Below, one piece after another: positions 13,073 through 17,453 of a stretch of DNA of 64,000 nt; positions within the stretch are counted from its first letter, which is position 1, and each line of letters begins with the position of its first letter. The notes under the pieces were generated by a model that saw only the letters and a program-made list of their open reading frames with translations, was not told where the DNA came from and did not search any database. This DNA comes from Vibrio alfacsensis (lineage in GTDB: Bacteria; Pseudomonadota; Gammaproteobacteria; Enterobacterales; Vibrionaceae): positions 1,116,001-1,180,000 of the forward strand of contig NZ_CP032094.1 of NCBI RefSeq assembly GCF_003544875.1, in the 5' to 3' direction. The translations under genes and the position numbers were made by a program.

Positions 13073-13101
13073 AAAAAAAACGCCACTCAAAATGAGTGGC
13101 G
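13073..13101 (-). terminator. Terminator after secF2
   Basis: Minus-strand stem CGCCACTCA / TGAGTGGCG with a TTT loop followed by eight T, 29 bases past the secF2 stop. Confidence 0.92.
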
Positions 13102-13129
13102 CATGCACTTTTACCTTATACTCTCACCG

Positions 13130-14032
13130 CTATGGTGCGGTATCAATTTCCACCGGCAAGTAATGCTTGGGTTCTAATTTTAGCCATTCTGGTAAAACCG
13201 TACCAATTGATATTGATGACCACGTACCTGAAAGCACGCCAATGAACATCGCGGTAGAGAAGCCCGCTAACGCTGAGCCGCCCATAATCCATAACGCGCC
13301 GACGGTGATTAGCGTTGTACCTGATGTCACCATAGTACGAGAAAACGTTGCTAGTACCGCTTCATCGTTAATTTGCTCGGTTTTCCAGTTCTGTTTAGCG
13401 ACTAACAACTCACGAATTCGGTCTGCAATGATGATTGAGTCATTCAATGAGTAACCAAGGATAGCCAGAATTGCCGCGAATACGGTTAAGTTAAACTCCA
13501 TCTGCGTTAGTGCGAAGAAGCCAAGCACAAGGATCACATCGTGAGCCAATGCAAACAGTGAACCGCTCGCTAAGCGCCATTCAAAACGGAAACACAAATA
13601 ACCCAAAATCGTCAGTACTGAAACAAGCAGTGCTAAACCACCTTGTTCAAACAGATCTTGCCCTACTTGTGCCCCAACAATACTGTTGCTCACCACCTCA
13701 ACTTGATGGGAAATCGGCTTTAGAACATCTGCAACATTGGGTACTGACTGACCATCAGTTGGAGCAGAGTAACGGATCAGCCAACGACCATCTTCTCCTG
13801 AACGCGTCACCGACGTAGACTCACCTAGCTTTGGTTGCAAAGCATTCAATAAATCATGATTAGTCAATTGCTTATCGACTTTTACTTCGGTAACCATACC
13901 ACCAGTAAAGTCTAGACCAAGGTTCAGCCCTTTTACTCCAAGTGCAACCAAAGCAATGATTGTCAGTACTACCGAGACAAAAGTAGTGAAATAACGAATT
14001 TTACGAATATTATGCTTTAACATTTCGACCAT
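13130..14032 (-). CDS. secF: Protein translocase subunit SecF, second copy (SecF2)
   Basis: A 300-residue membrane protein with the SecF layout: first membrane helix after RYFTTF, the LGLDFTGGMVTEVKV periplasmic motif, then five membrane helices with ILGYSLNDSIIIADRIRE and TLITVGALWIMGG. With SecD it uses the proton or sodium gradient to pull exported chains into the periplasm. It follows secD2 after two bases. The linked vemP identifies it as the regulated secDF2 copy known from V. alginolyticus. Confidence 0.92.
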   Translation of the reverse strand: MVEMLKHNIRKIRYFTTFVSVVLTIIALVALGVKGLNLGLDFTGGMVTEVKVDKQLTNHDLLNALQPKLGESTSVTRSGEDGRWLIRYSAPTDGQSVPNVADVLKPISHQVEVVSNSIVGAQVGQDLFEQGGLALLVSVLTILGYLCFRFEWRLASGSLFALAHDVILVLGFFALTQMEFNLTVFAAILAILGYSLNDSIIIADRIRELLVAKQNWKTEQINDEAVLATFSRTMVTSGTTLITVGALWIMGGSALAGFSTAMFIGVLSGTWSSISIGTVLPEWLKLEPKHYLPVEIDTAP

Positions 14033-14034
14033 GA

Positions 14035-15873
14035 TTAAACCCTCACATCACGACGGCCATCGCGGCCCCAAACTAAATTGATCATTGCACGAGAAGCAAA
14101 CACACCAGTGAACATGCTGGTCATCAGACCTAAGCCCAGTGTGAGTGCAAAACCCTGAATTGGGCCGTTACCAATGGCATAAAGAATCACGGCCGTGATC
14201 ATGGTTGTGATGTTGGCATCAAGGATGGTCGCAAATGCACTGTCAAAGCCGAGATCAATCGCCTGTGCGAAGCTACGACCTTCACGCATCTTGTCCTTAA
14301 TACGTTCAAAAATAATGACGTTCGTATCAACCGCCATACCTACGGTCAGTACCAAACCAGCAATACCAGGAAGCGTTAAAACCGCGCCAGGAAGCAAGGC
14401 GATTAGACCAAGTAAGCAAAGCATGTTTGCACATAGTGCTACGTTTGCAACCCAACCTAGGCGTCGGTACCAAACCGCCATAAACAATAAAGTCAGCCCC
14501 ATACCTAGCGCTAGAGCAGCGAAACCATTTTGAATGTTTTCTGCACCTAATGAAGCACCAATTGTTCTTTCTTCAACAATAGTGACTGGCGCAGTTAATG
14601 AGCCTGCTCGAAGCAATAGAGCAAGCTCTTGCGCTTCATCCATGCTACCCGCACCAGTAATGCGGAACTGACTGCCTAATTGAGATTGAATCGTAGCAAC
14701 ACTGATCACTCGTTCGCTGCGTTCCGTCATACCACGTTCATTTGTTTTGTATTCGCGGTAAACCGTCGCCATTGGCTTGCCAATGTGTGTCGCAGAGAAG
14801 TCGCTCATTTTCTTACCACCAGCGTGGTCAAGAGAAATGTTAACTTCAGACATGCCCATCTGATCGATACCAGCACGCGCATTCACAATGTGCTCACCAG
14901 TCAATACAGGTCGTTTCGCTAGAATGACGGTGCGGCCATCATTATCTTGAAGGACAAGATCTTGGCTACTGCGAGCCTGCCCCGCATCTTTTACTTCATA
15001 GAACGCAAGGCTTGCGGTTGCGCCTATCACGTTTTTCGCTTGCGCTGGATCTTGAACACCCGGTAATTCGATACGAATGCTCTCTTTACCTTGGCGCTGA
15101 ACTAATGCTTCTGTAATACCCAACTCTTCGATACGGCCGCGCATGATCTTCAAGTTTTGTTGAAGTGTCGTCGTTTGGAACTCTTGAATATTCTGTTCGC
15201 TAGGTTGAAGTTCAAAACCACGGTCAGAGCTTGTCATTTGCCAACCTGAGTAGTTTTGACGAATGAACTGACTTGCGGCTTTCAAGCCATCTTCATTATC
15301 ACTGTTTACGGCAATGTGATTGTGCGCTTCTGCTCGAACTTGAACACCACGAATACGCTGCTCTCGCAAACTCGCTTTAATTTCATCGACTAAAGCATCG
15401 CGTTGCTCTTCAAAAGCTTTGTTTACATCGACGTTCAGTAAGAATTGCACGCCGCCGCGAAGGTCAAGACCAAGCTTAATTGGGCTAAAACCCATCTCAT
15501 TCAGCCATTCAGGGGCCACAGACACATACGAAAATGTGATGCTATCATCATTGTCCAACTGGTCGTTTAACAATGCACGAGCTTTACTTTGCGCATCTTC
15601 ACCATCAAAAACGATGGTCGTTTTGCCATCTTTCTCAATGATCTTAGAGGCTGGAATGTGGTGCGTCTTTAGTAACTGGTCAAGCTGAACGACAGACATC
15701 GCGCTATTGCTATTATCAGCAAACGATACCTGAATGGAAGGCTGCTCACCAAACCATGTTGGGATAGCACTCAGCGTTAAAACAATGATTGTCGTAATGA
15801 GCACGACATACTTCCATGCTGAATAATGATTCAGCACTTTTCGATTCTTTTGAGGTTTTGGTGTTTTCTTCAT
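14035..15873 (-). CDS. secD: Protein translocase subunit SecD, second copy (SecD2)
   Basis: A 612-residue SecD with one N-terminal membrane helix (YVVLITTIIVLTLSAIPTWFG), the periplasmic P1 head with LGLDLRGGVQFLLNVD, and five C-terminal helices with AGLVLTVGMAVDTNVIIFERIKD carrying the conserved Asp of the ion path. Its Shine-Dalgarno (AGTGAAGGG) is inside a seven-pair stem-loop, and vemP lies 166 bases upstream, so expression should rise when VemP translation stalls. There is no YajC or tRNA-modification gene here, unlike the usual housekeeping secDF locus. Confidence 0.94.
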   Translation of the reverse strand: MKKTPKPQKNRKVLNHYSAWKYVVLITTIIVLTLSAIPTWFGEQPSIQVSFADNSNSAMSVVQLDQLLKTHHIPASKIIEKDGKTTIVFDGEDAQSKARALLNDQLDNDDSITFSYVSVAPEWLNEMGFSPIKLGLDLRGGVQFLLNVDVNKAFEEQRDALVDEIKASLREQRIRGVQVRAEAHNHIAVNSDNEDGLKAASQFIRQNYSGWQMTSSDRGFELQPSEQNIQEFQTTTLQQNLKIMRGRIEELGITEALVQRQGKESIRIELPGVQDPAQAKNVIGATASLAFYEVKDAGQARSSQDLVLQDNDGRTVILAKRPVLTGEHIVNARAGIDQMGMSEVNISLDHAGGKKMSDFSATHIGKPMATVYREYKTNERGMTERSERVISVATIQSQLGSQFRITGAGSMDEAQELALLLRAGSLTAPVTIVEERTIGASLGAENIQNGFAALALGMGLTLLFMAVWYRRLGWVANVALCANMLCLLGLIALLPGAVLTLPGIAGLVLTVGMAVDTNVIIFERIKDKMREGRSFAQAIDLGFDSAFATILDANITTMITAVILYAIGNGPIQGFALTLGLGLMTSMFTGVFASRAMINLVWGRDGRRDVRV

Positions 15874-15886
15874 GTAAACATAATCC

Positions 15887-15904
15887 CTTCACTCATCAGT
15901 GAAG
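15887..15904 (-). promoter_or_regulatory. Stem-loop hiding the secD2 ribosome binding site
   Basis: On the minus strand, CTTCACT pairs perfectly with AGTGAAG around a GATG loop; the right arm holds the Shine-Dalgarno 14-20 bases before the secD2 ATG. This fits the known VemP mechanism, in which a ribosome stalled upstream opens the structure that masks secD2. Confidence 0.8.
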
Positions 15905-15924
15905 TTTCAATTAATTGATTCAAG

Positions 15925-16006
15925 ACACGACAAAGTACCCACCTGCAGAATAAGCAGGCATTGAATGCACAGAGATCTTTATTTGCTCTGTAGAAAATCG
16001 TCGTGT
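15925..16006 (-). promoter_or_regulatory. Long-range structure in the vemP-secD2 leader
   Basis: ACACGAC (15925-15931) can pair with GTCGTGT (16000-16006). Two inner hairpins lie between: CCTGC/GCAGG (15942-15957) and CAGAG/CTCTG (15970-15990). Together they form a branched fold between the vemP stop and the secD2 start. The role is inferred from position. Confidence 0.55.
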
Positions 16007-16039
16007 TAAGAAAGCACTAGACGTGCCGATTGATGGTGT

Positions 16040-16519
16040 TTACGCAGAGTATTGACTGTTGAGCGCAACGTACATGGCATTGGTTTCTTTCCAGCCAGAC
16101 AGTCGGTGCTCACTTGTAAAATGGTTAAAAACGGATTGATTTTGACGCCAACTGATGTCCATTAAGCTATAGGCATAGCCCGCATCAGCATAGAAAGGGG
16201 TGGTTAAGTCGCCAATGAACTCTATATGTTCATCATCGACGTTCTCTCGTAAATGGCTAACCCAACGTTGAGAATTAAAAATAGCGAGTGAATCTTGAAA
16301 CGCGTGACTTTCCGAAACCGGAGCCTGTGTGCTTTCTTCACTAAACTCAGTGAAGTCAACCAACGCGTTCGCTGCAACGTGACTGACAGTAAAAGGCTGC
16401 AGCTTAGAAAAGTGAGGCAAATAGGATTTTTGTTCTGTTTGCGCAGCCGTTGCCTGCATTGGCGACAACGCCATTGCAAGAAGCAGCAAAAACAGTTTTC
16501 TAACATAAATCCAAGGCAT
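16040..16519 (-). CDS. vemP: VemP, secretion-monitoring arrest peptide
   Basis: 159 residues, the length of the V. alginolyticus VemP. It has an N-terminal Sec signal (RKLFLLLLAMALSPMQATA) and a C-terminal arrest region with HRLSGWKETNAMYVALNSQ. Numbering puts Trp143 and Gln156 exactly where the published arrest residues lie, with three codons (YSA) left before the stop. VemP stalls its own ribosome near Gln156 unless its export pulls it free; the stalled ribosome opens the secD2 leader. It should act as a sensor of Sec capacity and of low sodium. The gene has its own upstream spacer of about 260 bases. Confidence 0.95.
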   Translation of the reverse strand: MPWIYVRKLFLLLLAMALSPMQATAAQTEQKSYLPHFSKLQPFTVSHVAANALVDFTEFSEESTQAPVSESHAFQDSLAIFNSQRWVSHLRENVDDEHIEFIGDLTTPFYADAGYAYSLMDISWRQNQSVFNHFTSEHRLSGWKETNAMYVALNSQYSA

Positions 16520-16781
16520 AAAAGCTCACTTAAAACAAAACAAGCCGAATACTTATACTCAGCCCGCTGATAGTATTCCTAATGGTTATTGTTCACAACT
16601 AAAAATTATCAAATAGTATTTCAGTGTCGCAATACCCGATTAATCTCTCGATGCTTGGTTATCAATTGTACTAAGTCTGCTCTTACTTCTAAGTTAAGTG
16701 GCCGATTATCCTAAGTGCATGGGTATCAATATGCGGTTACCAATCTGTCCTAAACACTTCGGAAAAGAACAGCAAAATCGG

Positions 16782-17453
16782 TTAGCGATAGAATATCTCA
16801 CCTTTATCGACATCCAAATAAATTTTGTTCTCTTGCTCAAGACCGCCACAGTAGATGAAATACACGTTACGAGCCTTGTATGTCACCGAACGAACCCACC
16901 CTCCTAACTCATCAAAATCACTCGGTCTGCATGTTTCATCATCTAATAACAGCTGCGTCTTATTTCGGAACATGTCCAAATGTACTTTCAAGTCGTCTGA
17001 TTTTTGTAAGTAGCCGTCTAATGTATCCAGACGTTCTTGCTCTTTGATCACCGGTTGTGCATCAGACAGACCTTTTGAATTGACCCATTCAGCGGTCTCT
17101 TCTCCACCCTCTTCATACACAATGTAATCAGATAGACGAAACCAACCATCGTTTTGTTCTAGTACGGCAACCTTTTCACCTTTGTAAAGGGTATCGACAA
17201 CCAATGCGGTCTCTTTGGGGTGATTGTAAACGTCAATCCGACGCTCTATCACATAGTATTCACTTGGCTCTTGTAACACGGGCTCGGCCAAGGTTGGCAC
17301 CTGCTCACTTTCTTTTAAGTCAAGCACCGGCGTTGATGCTGCTGTCTCACTCGTGTCTTCTGGCTGGTCTTGCTGCATCACAAAGAAATAGTAGCCAGCG
17401 CCGATGCCTCCAAACAGGAGCAATATTCCTAATGCGACGAGTGCTTTCTTCAT
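16782..17453 (-). CDS. Membrane-anchored protein with SH3-like domain
   Basis: 223 residues. An N-terminal membrane anchor (VALGILLLFGGIGAGYYFFV) is followed by an acidic linker, then a bacterial SH3-like stretch at about residues 66-125 (YYVIERRIDVYNHPKETALVVDTLYKGEKVAVLEQNDGWFRL is the visible pattern, in part). The C-terminal region has two Cys (ETCRPSDF and IYCGGL) that could form a disulfide in the periplasm. I do not recognise the whole family; the SH3 match is by pattern. It diverges from the next gene at 17510. Confidence 0.75.
   Translation of the reverse strand: MKKALVALGILLLFGGIGAGYYFFVMQQDQPEDTSETAASTPVLDLKESEQVPTLAEPVLQEPSEYYVIERRIDVYNHPKETALVVDTLYKGEKVAVLEQNDGWFRLSDYIVYEEGGEETAEWVNSKGLSDAQPVIKEQERLDTLDGYLQKSDDLKVHLDMFRNKTQLLLDDETCRPSDFDELGGWVRSVTYKARNVYFIYCGGLEQENKIYLDVDKGEIFYR

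Follow-up and report, generated by a model that had tools for sequence, protein, structure and literature searches.

A VemP-secDF2 locus in Vibrio alfacsensis with a predicted long-range mRNA helix, and VemP-like leaders ahead of rodA2

Our analysis of a window of 64,000 nucleotides from Vibrio alfacsensis (the whole stretch of DNA under study; contig NZ_CP032094.1, positions 1,116,001 to 1,180,000) supports the presence of a VemP-secDF2 switch orthologous to the well-studied system of V. alginolyticus. The switch, already proposed in an original prediction made from the sequence, is supported by homology, gene order, the published cis elements of the arrest peptide, a second SecDF and YfgM-like and PpiD-like genes in the same genome, and covarying RNA. 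The locus itself is of a known kind; the parts that seem new are a second mRNA helix (P0), a C-terminal tail that can be exchanged, and related leaders ahead of rodA2.

Gene order and arrest residues

The genes lie on the minus strand in the order vemP (16040..16519, ATG to TAA, 159 residues), secD2 (14035..15873, 612 residues; NF009545, 1093 bits against a cut-off of 728) and secF2 (13130..14032, 300 residues; TIGR00966, 270 bits), with a terminator-like hairpin 3' of secF2 (13080..13102, minus strand). Both the 159-residue frame, read from 16519 to 16040, and its place directly ahead of secD2F2 on the same strand agree with the original prediction, and the three genes form one operon in the overall explanation that we regard as very probable. 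In the known VemP system, SecDF1 is driven by Na+ and SecDF2 by H+; in the present genome, SecDF1 is encoded on another replicon (G000:C1:2532170-2533615, 504 bits, with an adjoining SecF-like match), and YfgM-like and PpiD-like genes were both found in the genome. About 20 nt 5' of the vemP ATG, the leader also contains a terminator-like hairpin with a T-rich tail (16539-16568, minus strand), a possible attenuator according to folding; it folds with differing bases in seven other loci (L009-L012, L014, L018 and L019), is less clear in L013, L016 and L017 and is absent from the folds of L021 and L029.

VemP aligned over residues 25-159 with the VemP chain of PDB 5nwy from V. alginolyticus (E 9.4e-66), and the closest named homologs are the VemPs of V. 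owensii (86%) and V. harveyi (85%). Its N-terminus, MPWIYVRKLFLLLLAMALSPMQATAA, looks like a typical Sec signal on visual inspection (residues 1-26; 16442..16519, minus strand). The arrest segment, H138-Q156 as named in PMC5449182, reads HRLSGWKETNAMYVALNSQ (16052..16108, minus strand) and ends with codon 156 (CAA, 16052..16054, minus strand), the expected P-site codon at the arrest point given in the same paper. Trp143 and Gln156 occupy the published arrest positions, as had been predicted, and the motif HRIxGWKETNAMYVxLNxx is matched save for Leu at 140. The release of V. alginolyticus VemP has been reported to be governed by Q65, P67, L78AIF and R85 (PMC11470409), and the window VemP has the corresponding elements (Q65, P67, L78-A-I-F81 and R85), fitting the scheme of (hydrophilic)xP, a short hydrophobic segment and R85. 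The two proteins differ in the tail, HRLSGWKETNAMYVALNSQYSA in the window and HRISGWKETNAMYVALNSQFSA in 5nwy, by I140L and F157Y, the second of which was absent from the earlier account.

These two changes raise the question of whether the window VemP is a weakened form in which I140L and F157Y lower the arrest, leaving secD2 little regulated. Such an explanation draws on structural work in which the chain is anchored by an alpha-turn that I140 opens, and F157 sits in the A site (PMC5449182), but we consider it very improbable, as the frame and RNA elements of the locus are intact and both substitutions are common in junctions that all lie upstream of secD2. Across 117 class I junctions, residue 140 is L in 55, I in 54 and V in 8, residue 157 is F in 71 and Y in 40, and residue 156 is Q in 92 and H in 20, whereas R139, G142, W143, K144, N147, Y150, V151 and L153 are invariant. 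The departure from the reference at residue 140 that the original prediction had raised as a possibility is real, but because Leu is as common there as Ile, there is little reason to expect weaker arrest.

Compared with the VemP-SecDF2 system of V. alginolyticus (PDB 5nwy; PMC5449182, PMC7793623, PMC11470409), the window locus shares the length of the peptide, the arrest segment, the cis elements, the gene order and a ribosome-binding site (RBS)-masking mRNA structure; it differs in I140L, F157Y and a weaker inner half of P0. The SecM-secA system of E. coli is similar in that a secreted arrest peptide stalls a ribosome that disrupts a stem hiding the Shine-Dalgarno (SD) sequence of the next gene, but its arrest sequence (FxxxxWIxxxxGIRAGP) is unrelated and its target is secA (PMC10987492, PMC7897499). 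Likewise, the uDF_RQH leader of Alteromonas naphthalenivorans is an arrest peptide before secDF2 with a stem-loop partly masking the SD sequence, but it belongs to another family, with an R125GPP arrest end (PMC10987492).

Two covarying helices at the vemP-secD2 junction

An mRNA structure hiding the secD2 RBS is predicted by folding and backed by covariation. The 200-nt stretch of the junction was more stable than 200 of 200 shuffled sequences (z -3.25), and three elements were found in the fold and, unaided, by RNAalifold on 20 clade junctions. The first is a hairpin, CUUCACU-GAUG-AGUGAAG (15887..15904, minus strand), whose stem pairs CUUCACU (15904-15898) with AGUGAAG (15893-15887) at a mean probability of 0.99 and holds the AAG of the likely SD sequence AAGGGA (15884..15889, minus strand). 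The second, missed in the original prediction, is the long-range helix P0, which joins the stop region of vemP to the spacer of secD2; its 5' arm (16032..16043, minus strand) consists of GUAAACA (16043-16037), which contains the vemP stop codon, and AUC, and its 3' arm (15874..15885, minus strand) of GAU and UGUUUAC (15880-15874), which abuts the secD2 AUG. In the lowest-energy fold of the window, GUAAACA/UGUUUAC pairs with a probability of 0.99 and AUC/GAU with 0.86. The 2x2 mismatch in the window's P0, at a point where a 1x1 mismatch is usual among relatives, counts against the switch proposed below. The third is a central domain (15925..16006, minus strand) in which the closing pairing ACACGACGA/UUGUCGUGU surrounds two hairpins. 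A scan of 15800-16800 against Rfam returned a sole match, CRISPR-DR4 on the plus strand, which at 23.6 bits is below the gathering score of 35 and was dismissed as chance.

In the RNAalifold alignment of the 20 clade junctions, no P0 pair was changed on both sides; P0 is nearly invariant within the clade, and the covariation that supports it is found in distant junctions. From 173 loci, 170 with a SecD2 frame were kept (L149, L152 and L157 had none and turned out to be rodA2 leaders), giving 147 junctions after removal of 23 identical ones; these fell into 70 clusters, 67 of which were usable once seven junctions with a doubtful secD2 start, three of them representatives, had been dropped. The pairing of each junction's own arms was compared by permutation with that of arms swapped between species. 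The end of vemP paired with its own secD2 start region at -8.46 kcal/mol, compared with -6.73 kcal/mol for that of other species (67 clusters; 0 of 20,000 permutations). Over 78 junction clusters, P0 reached z -11.2 (0 of 20,000 permutations; -1.7 and -1.4 in controls with one strand reversed) and the SD hairpin z -9.3 (0 of 20,000; reversed-strand control -1.2). Swapping arms was sharper than shuffling the 5' arm alone, for which the effect was weak (mean z -0.88, with 20% of 147 junctions at p <= 0.05). In 31 of 78 cases, against 7.8 expected, the native arm ranked in the top 10% for its own RBS, so that many junctions are unremarkable when taken one by one. Some junctions lack P0; in L070-L078 and similar loci the leader ends in ALYVALNSQFA and the secD2 start shows little P0 pairing, which may reflect a wrongly assigned start or loss of the lock.

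When the 5' window was moved from -198 to +126 relative to codon 156, the signal peaked at 0 (z -7.3) and +6 (z -6.5) and outside the peak stayed between -3.1 (at -6, adjoining it) and +3.0. The 3' side of P0 peaked at ATG-12..+5 (z -7.3 to -8.1), and the SD hairpin formed a separate peak at ATG-36..-25 (z -8.9). The 5' arm of P0 is thus placed at the arrest codon and immediately 3' of it, and its pairing is species-specific. These are about the bases that a ribosome holding codon 156 in its P site is expected to cover.

Both helices very probably act together as a VemP switch, a reading that has to be weighed against two others. In one of these, implied by the original prediction, switching is left to the local SD hairpin, with P0 as an incidental pairing. 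The hairpin is indeed conserved, its covariation is as strong as that of P0, and opening the window's RBS after modelled arrest still costs about 8 kcal/mol; on the other hand, the hairpin begins 150 nt past codon 156, beyond the reach of a stalled ribosome, and a species-specific helix lies exactly where that ribosome would sit, making this reading improbable. The seven-pair stem around the secD2 SD sequence, as originally predicted, is thus real and covarying, but its direct link to arrest did not hold: at 150-165 nt from codon 156, it cannot be opened directly by the stalled ribosome. According to the other, even less probable reading, the locus shows plain translational coupling in which the last codons of vemP pair with the start of secD2, an arrangement common to many operons, and any terminating ribosome opens it. 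The stop codon does lie inside the P0 5' arm and the scan peak spans arrest and termination positions alike, yet vemP ends about 166 nt upstream of secD2, so that a terminating ribosome does not reach it, and the arrest residues are invariant across many species.

How arrest may open secD2

In the two-helix switch that we favor, VemP would be an export substrate whose C-terminus halts its own ribosome with Gln156 in the P site. When export pulls the chain, arrest would end at once and the ribosome would finish vemP and leave, allowing the vemP stop region to pair with the secD2 spacer in P0 while the local hairpin holds the SD bases and keeps secD2 off. When export is slow, the ribosome would remain at codon 156 and occupy the P0 5' arm, so that the spacer and the start codon of secD2 become free; the initiating 30S subunit would then open the short SD hairpin, and SecDF2 would be made. 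Arrest, release by export and induction have been reported for V. alginolyticus, and by analogy the same steps would take place in V. alfacsensis.

This model was examined by blocking 31 nt, the size of a model ribosome, and comparing the energy needed to open the RBS. With the block centered on codon 156, the opening energy fell by 2.81 kcal/mol on average (67 clusters), as opposed to mean gains of 0.30, 0.16 and 0.49 kcal/mol at -60, -30 and -12; 3' of codon 156, the gain was 2.61 at +12 and 1.01 at +36 (63 clusters). The change was in the right direction in 17 of 20 clade junctions, the exceptions being L014, L039 and L043. In the window, the modelled gain was just 1.4 kcal/mol (9.4 to 8.0), and a block 60 nt upstream gave as much (7.9); L038 and L039, 97-98.5% identical to V. 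alginolyticus VemP, gave +1.1 and -1.1. On average, these calculations support the opening of the RBS by arrest, with a weak predicted unlocking in the window and mixed outcomes in V. alginolyticus-type loci. Single-species opening energies were rejected as a predictor of induction as too noisy, and for this reason our argument relies on covariation.

Covariation of the vemP-secD2 RNA was not found in the titles and abstract openings of the literature surveyed, and P0 may already have been drawn for V. alginolyticus. The published stem-loop gains an evolutionary footing from our data: the RBS and the RNA arm covering it, which lies where arrest occurs, change together in evolution. A co-evolving arm of this kind offers a sequence test for the arrest position of leader peptides not yet characterized.

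A constant anchor with exchangeable tails

The VemP profile matched in 153 of 329 Vibrionaceae genomes, and the secD2-type model scored above its cut-off in 269 of the 329. We examined 48 secD2 loci lacking a VemP match (10 + 38), picked from the listed rows as a subset of the 269; each of the 48 is preceded by a frame that carries R-x3-W-K-x2-N close to its end and in which VALNSQ is replaced by tails such as RFISQADA, SQRLYPHS, TVYHHRL or SHYGHSF. Across L150-L181 and L185-L222, this anchor is kept and several lineage-specific tails stand in for VALNSQ. In 24 VALNSQ-replaced clusters, the RNA signal keeps its distance from the anchor (+6..+23, z -5.5, 0 of 2000). Class II leaders show an extra, weaker and unexplained pairing peak within the arrest codons (-24..-7 from codon 156; z -3.5, 0 of 2000). 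A VemP-like set of 339 proteins has been described with an RxxxWKxxNxxY-like consensus, which already covers much of the breadth of the tails and which the window VemP fits (PMC10987492). Leaders with residues 151-156 replaced, or lying ahead of rodA2, are not discussed in the available parts of that paper. Natural leaders with the anchor but without N154 and its neighbors could be used to test how far arrest depends on these residues.

VemP-like leaders upstream of a cell-wall synthase gene

Away from secD2, the VemP profile gave three matches, each at the end of a frame of 155-174 residues with a hydrophobic N-terminus and all directly upstream of a RodA-like gene (TIGR02210, 386 bits in the two tested). 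The leader frames lie at L223:2319-2843 (minus strand), L224:2288-2755 (plus strand) and L225:2010-2522 (plus strand), in genomes with three SEDS genes each, the same number as in the window's genome. With a profile built from the three leaders, seven further non-secD2 matches were examined, and 7 of 7 preceded the same RodA-like gene. Such leader frames directly precede rodA2, a third SEDS gene, in L223-L225, L229-L235 and L247, from Photobacterium-like genomes and one relative. These leaders carry the tail R-x2-G-W-K-x2-N or D. The leader motif is intact in 11 of the best 30 rodA2 loci, eroded in two (L248 and L249) and missing from 17; the 13 motif-bearing loci are the 13 nearest (83-100% identity). 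A VemP-like leader is absent from 20 further rodA2 loci, including the window genome's own (rodA2 at G000:C2:5162-6220; L268, G000:C2:6021-7620).

Taken with the replaced tails, we lean slightly toward the view that VemP is a modular device that has been relocated: the anchor R-x3-W-K-x2-N and the RNA arm would have been kept, while the peptidyl-transferase-silencing VALNSQ was replaced several times, and in some Photobacterium and one relative the leader would control peptidoglycan synthesis from ahead of rodA2, the third SEDS cell-wall synthase, through an RNA lock of its own, with RodA and RodA2 as a back-up pair paralleling SecDF1 and SecDF2. The N-terminus of the rodA2 leaders suggests that they may sense membrane insertion or export. 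If true, this would be a case outside protein localization, in which cell-wall synthesis is tied to a sensor of export or insertion. An arrest peptide upstream of rodA was not found among the literature matches listed.

The pairing test was applied to 10 of the 12 leaders recovered, with L243 and L246 removed as near-duplicates and the eroded L249 kept; L248 gave none. The stop region of the 10 leaders paired best with its own start region (z -2.8 at 0 and -3.1 at +6; 14 and 7 of 2000); with sequences that are few and related, this is no more than suggestive of an RNA lock at rodA2. An unexplained peak was also seen at -24 (z -2.5, 22 of 2000), and one of the first three rodA2 leaders has exactly the sequence of a Photobacterium marinum hypothetical protein.
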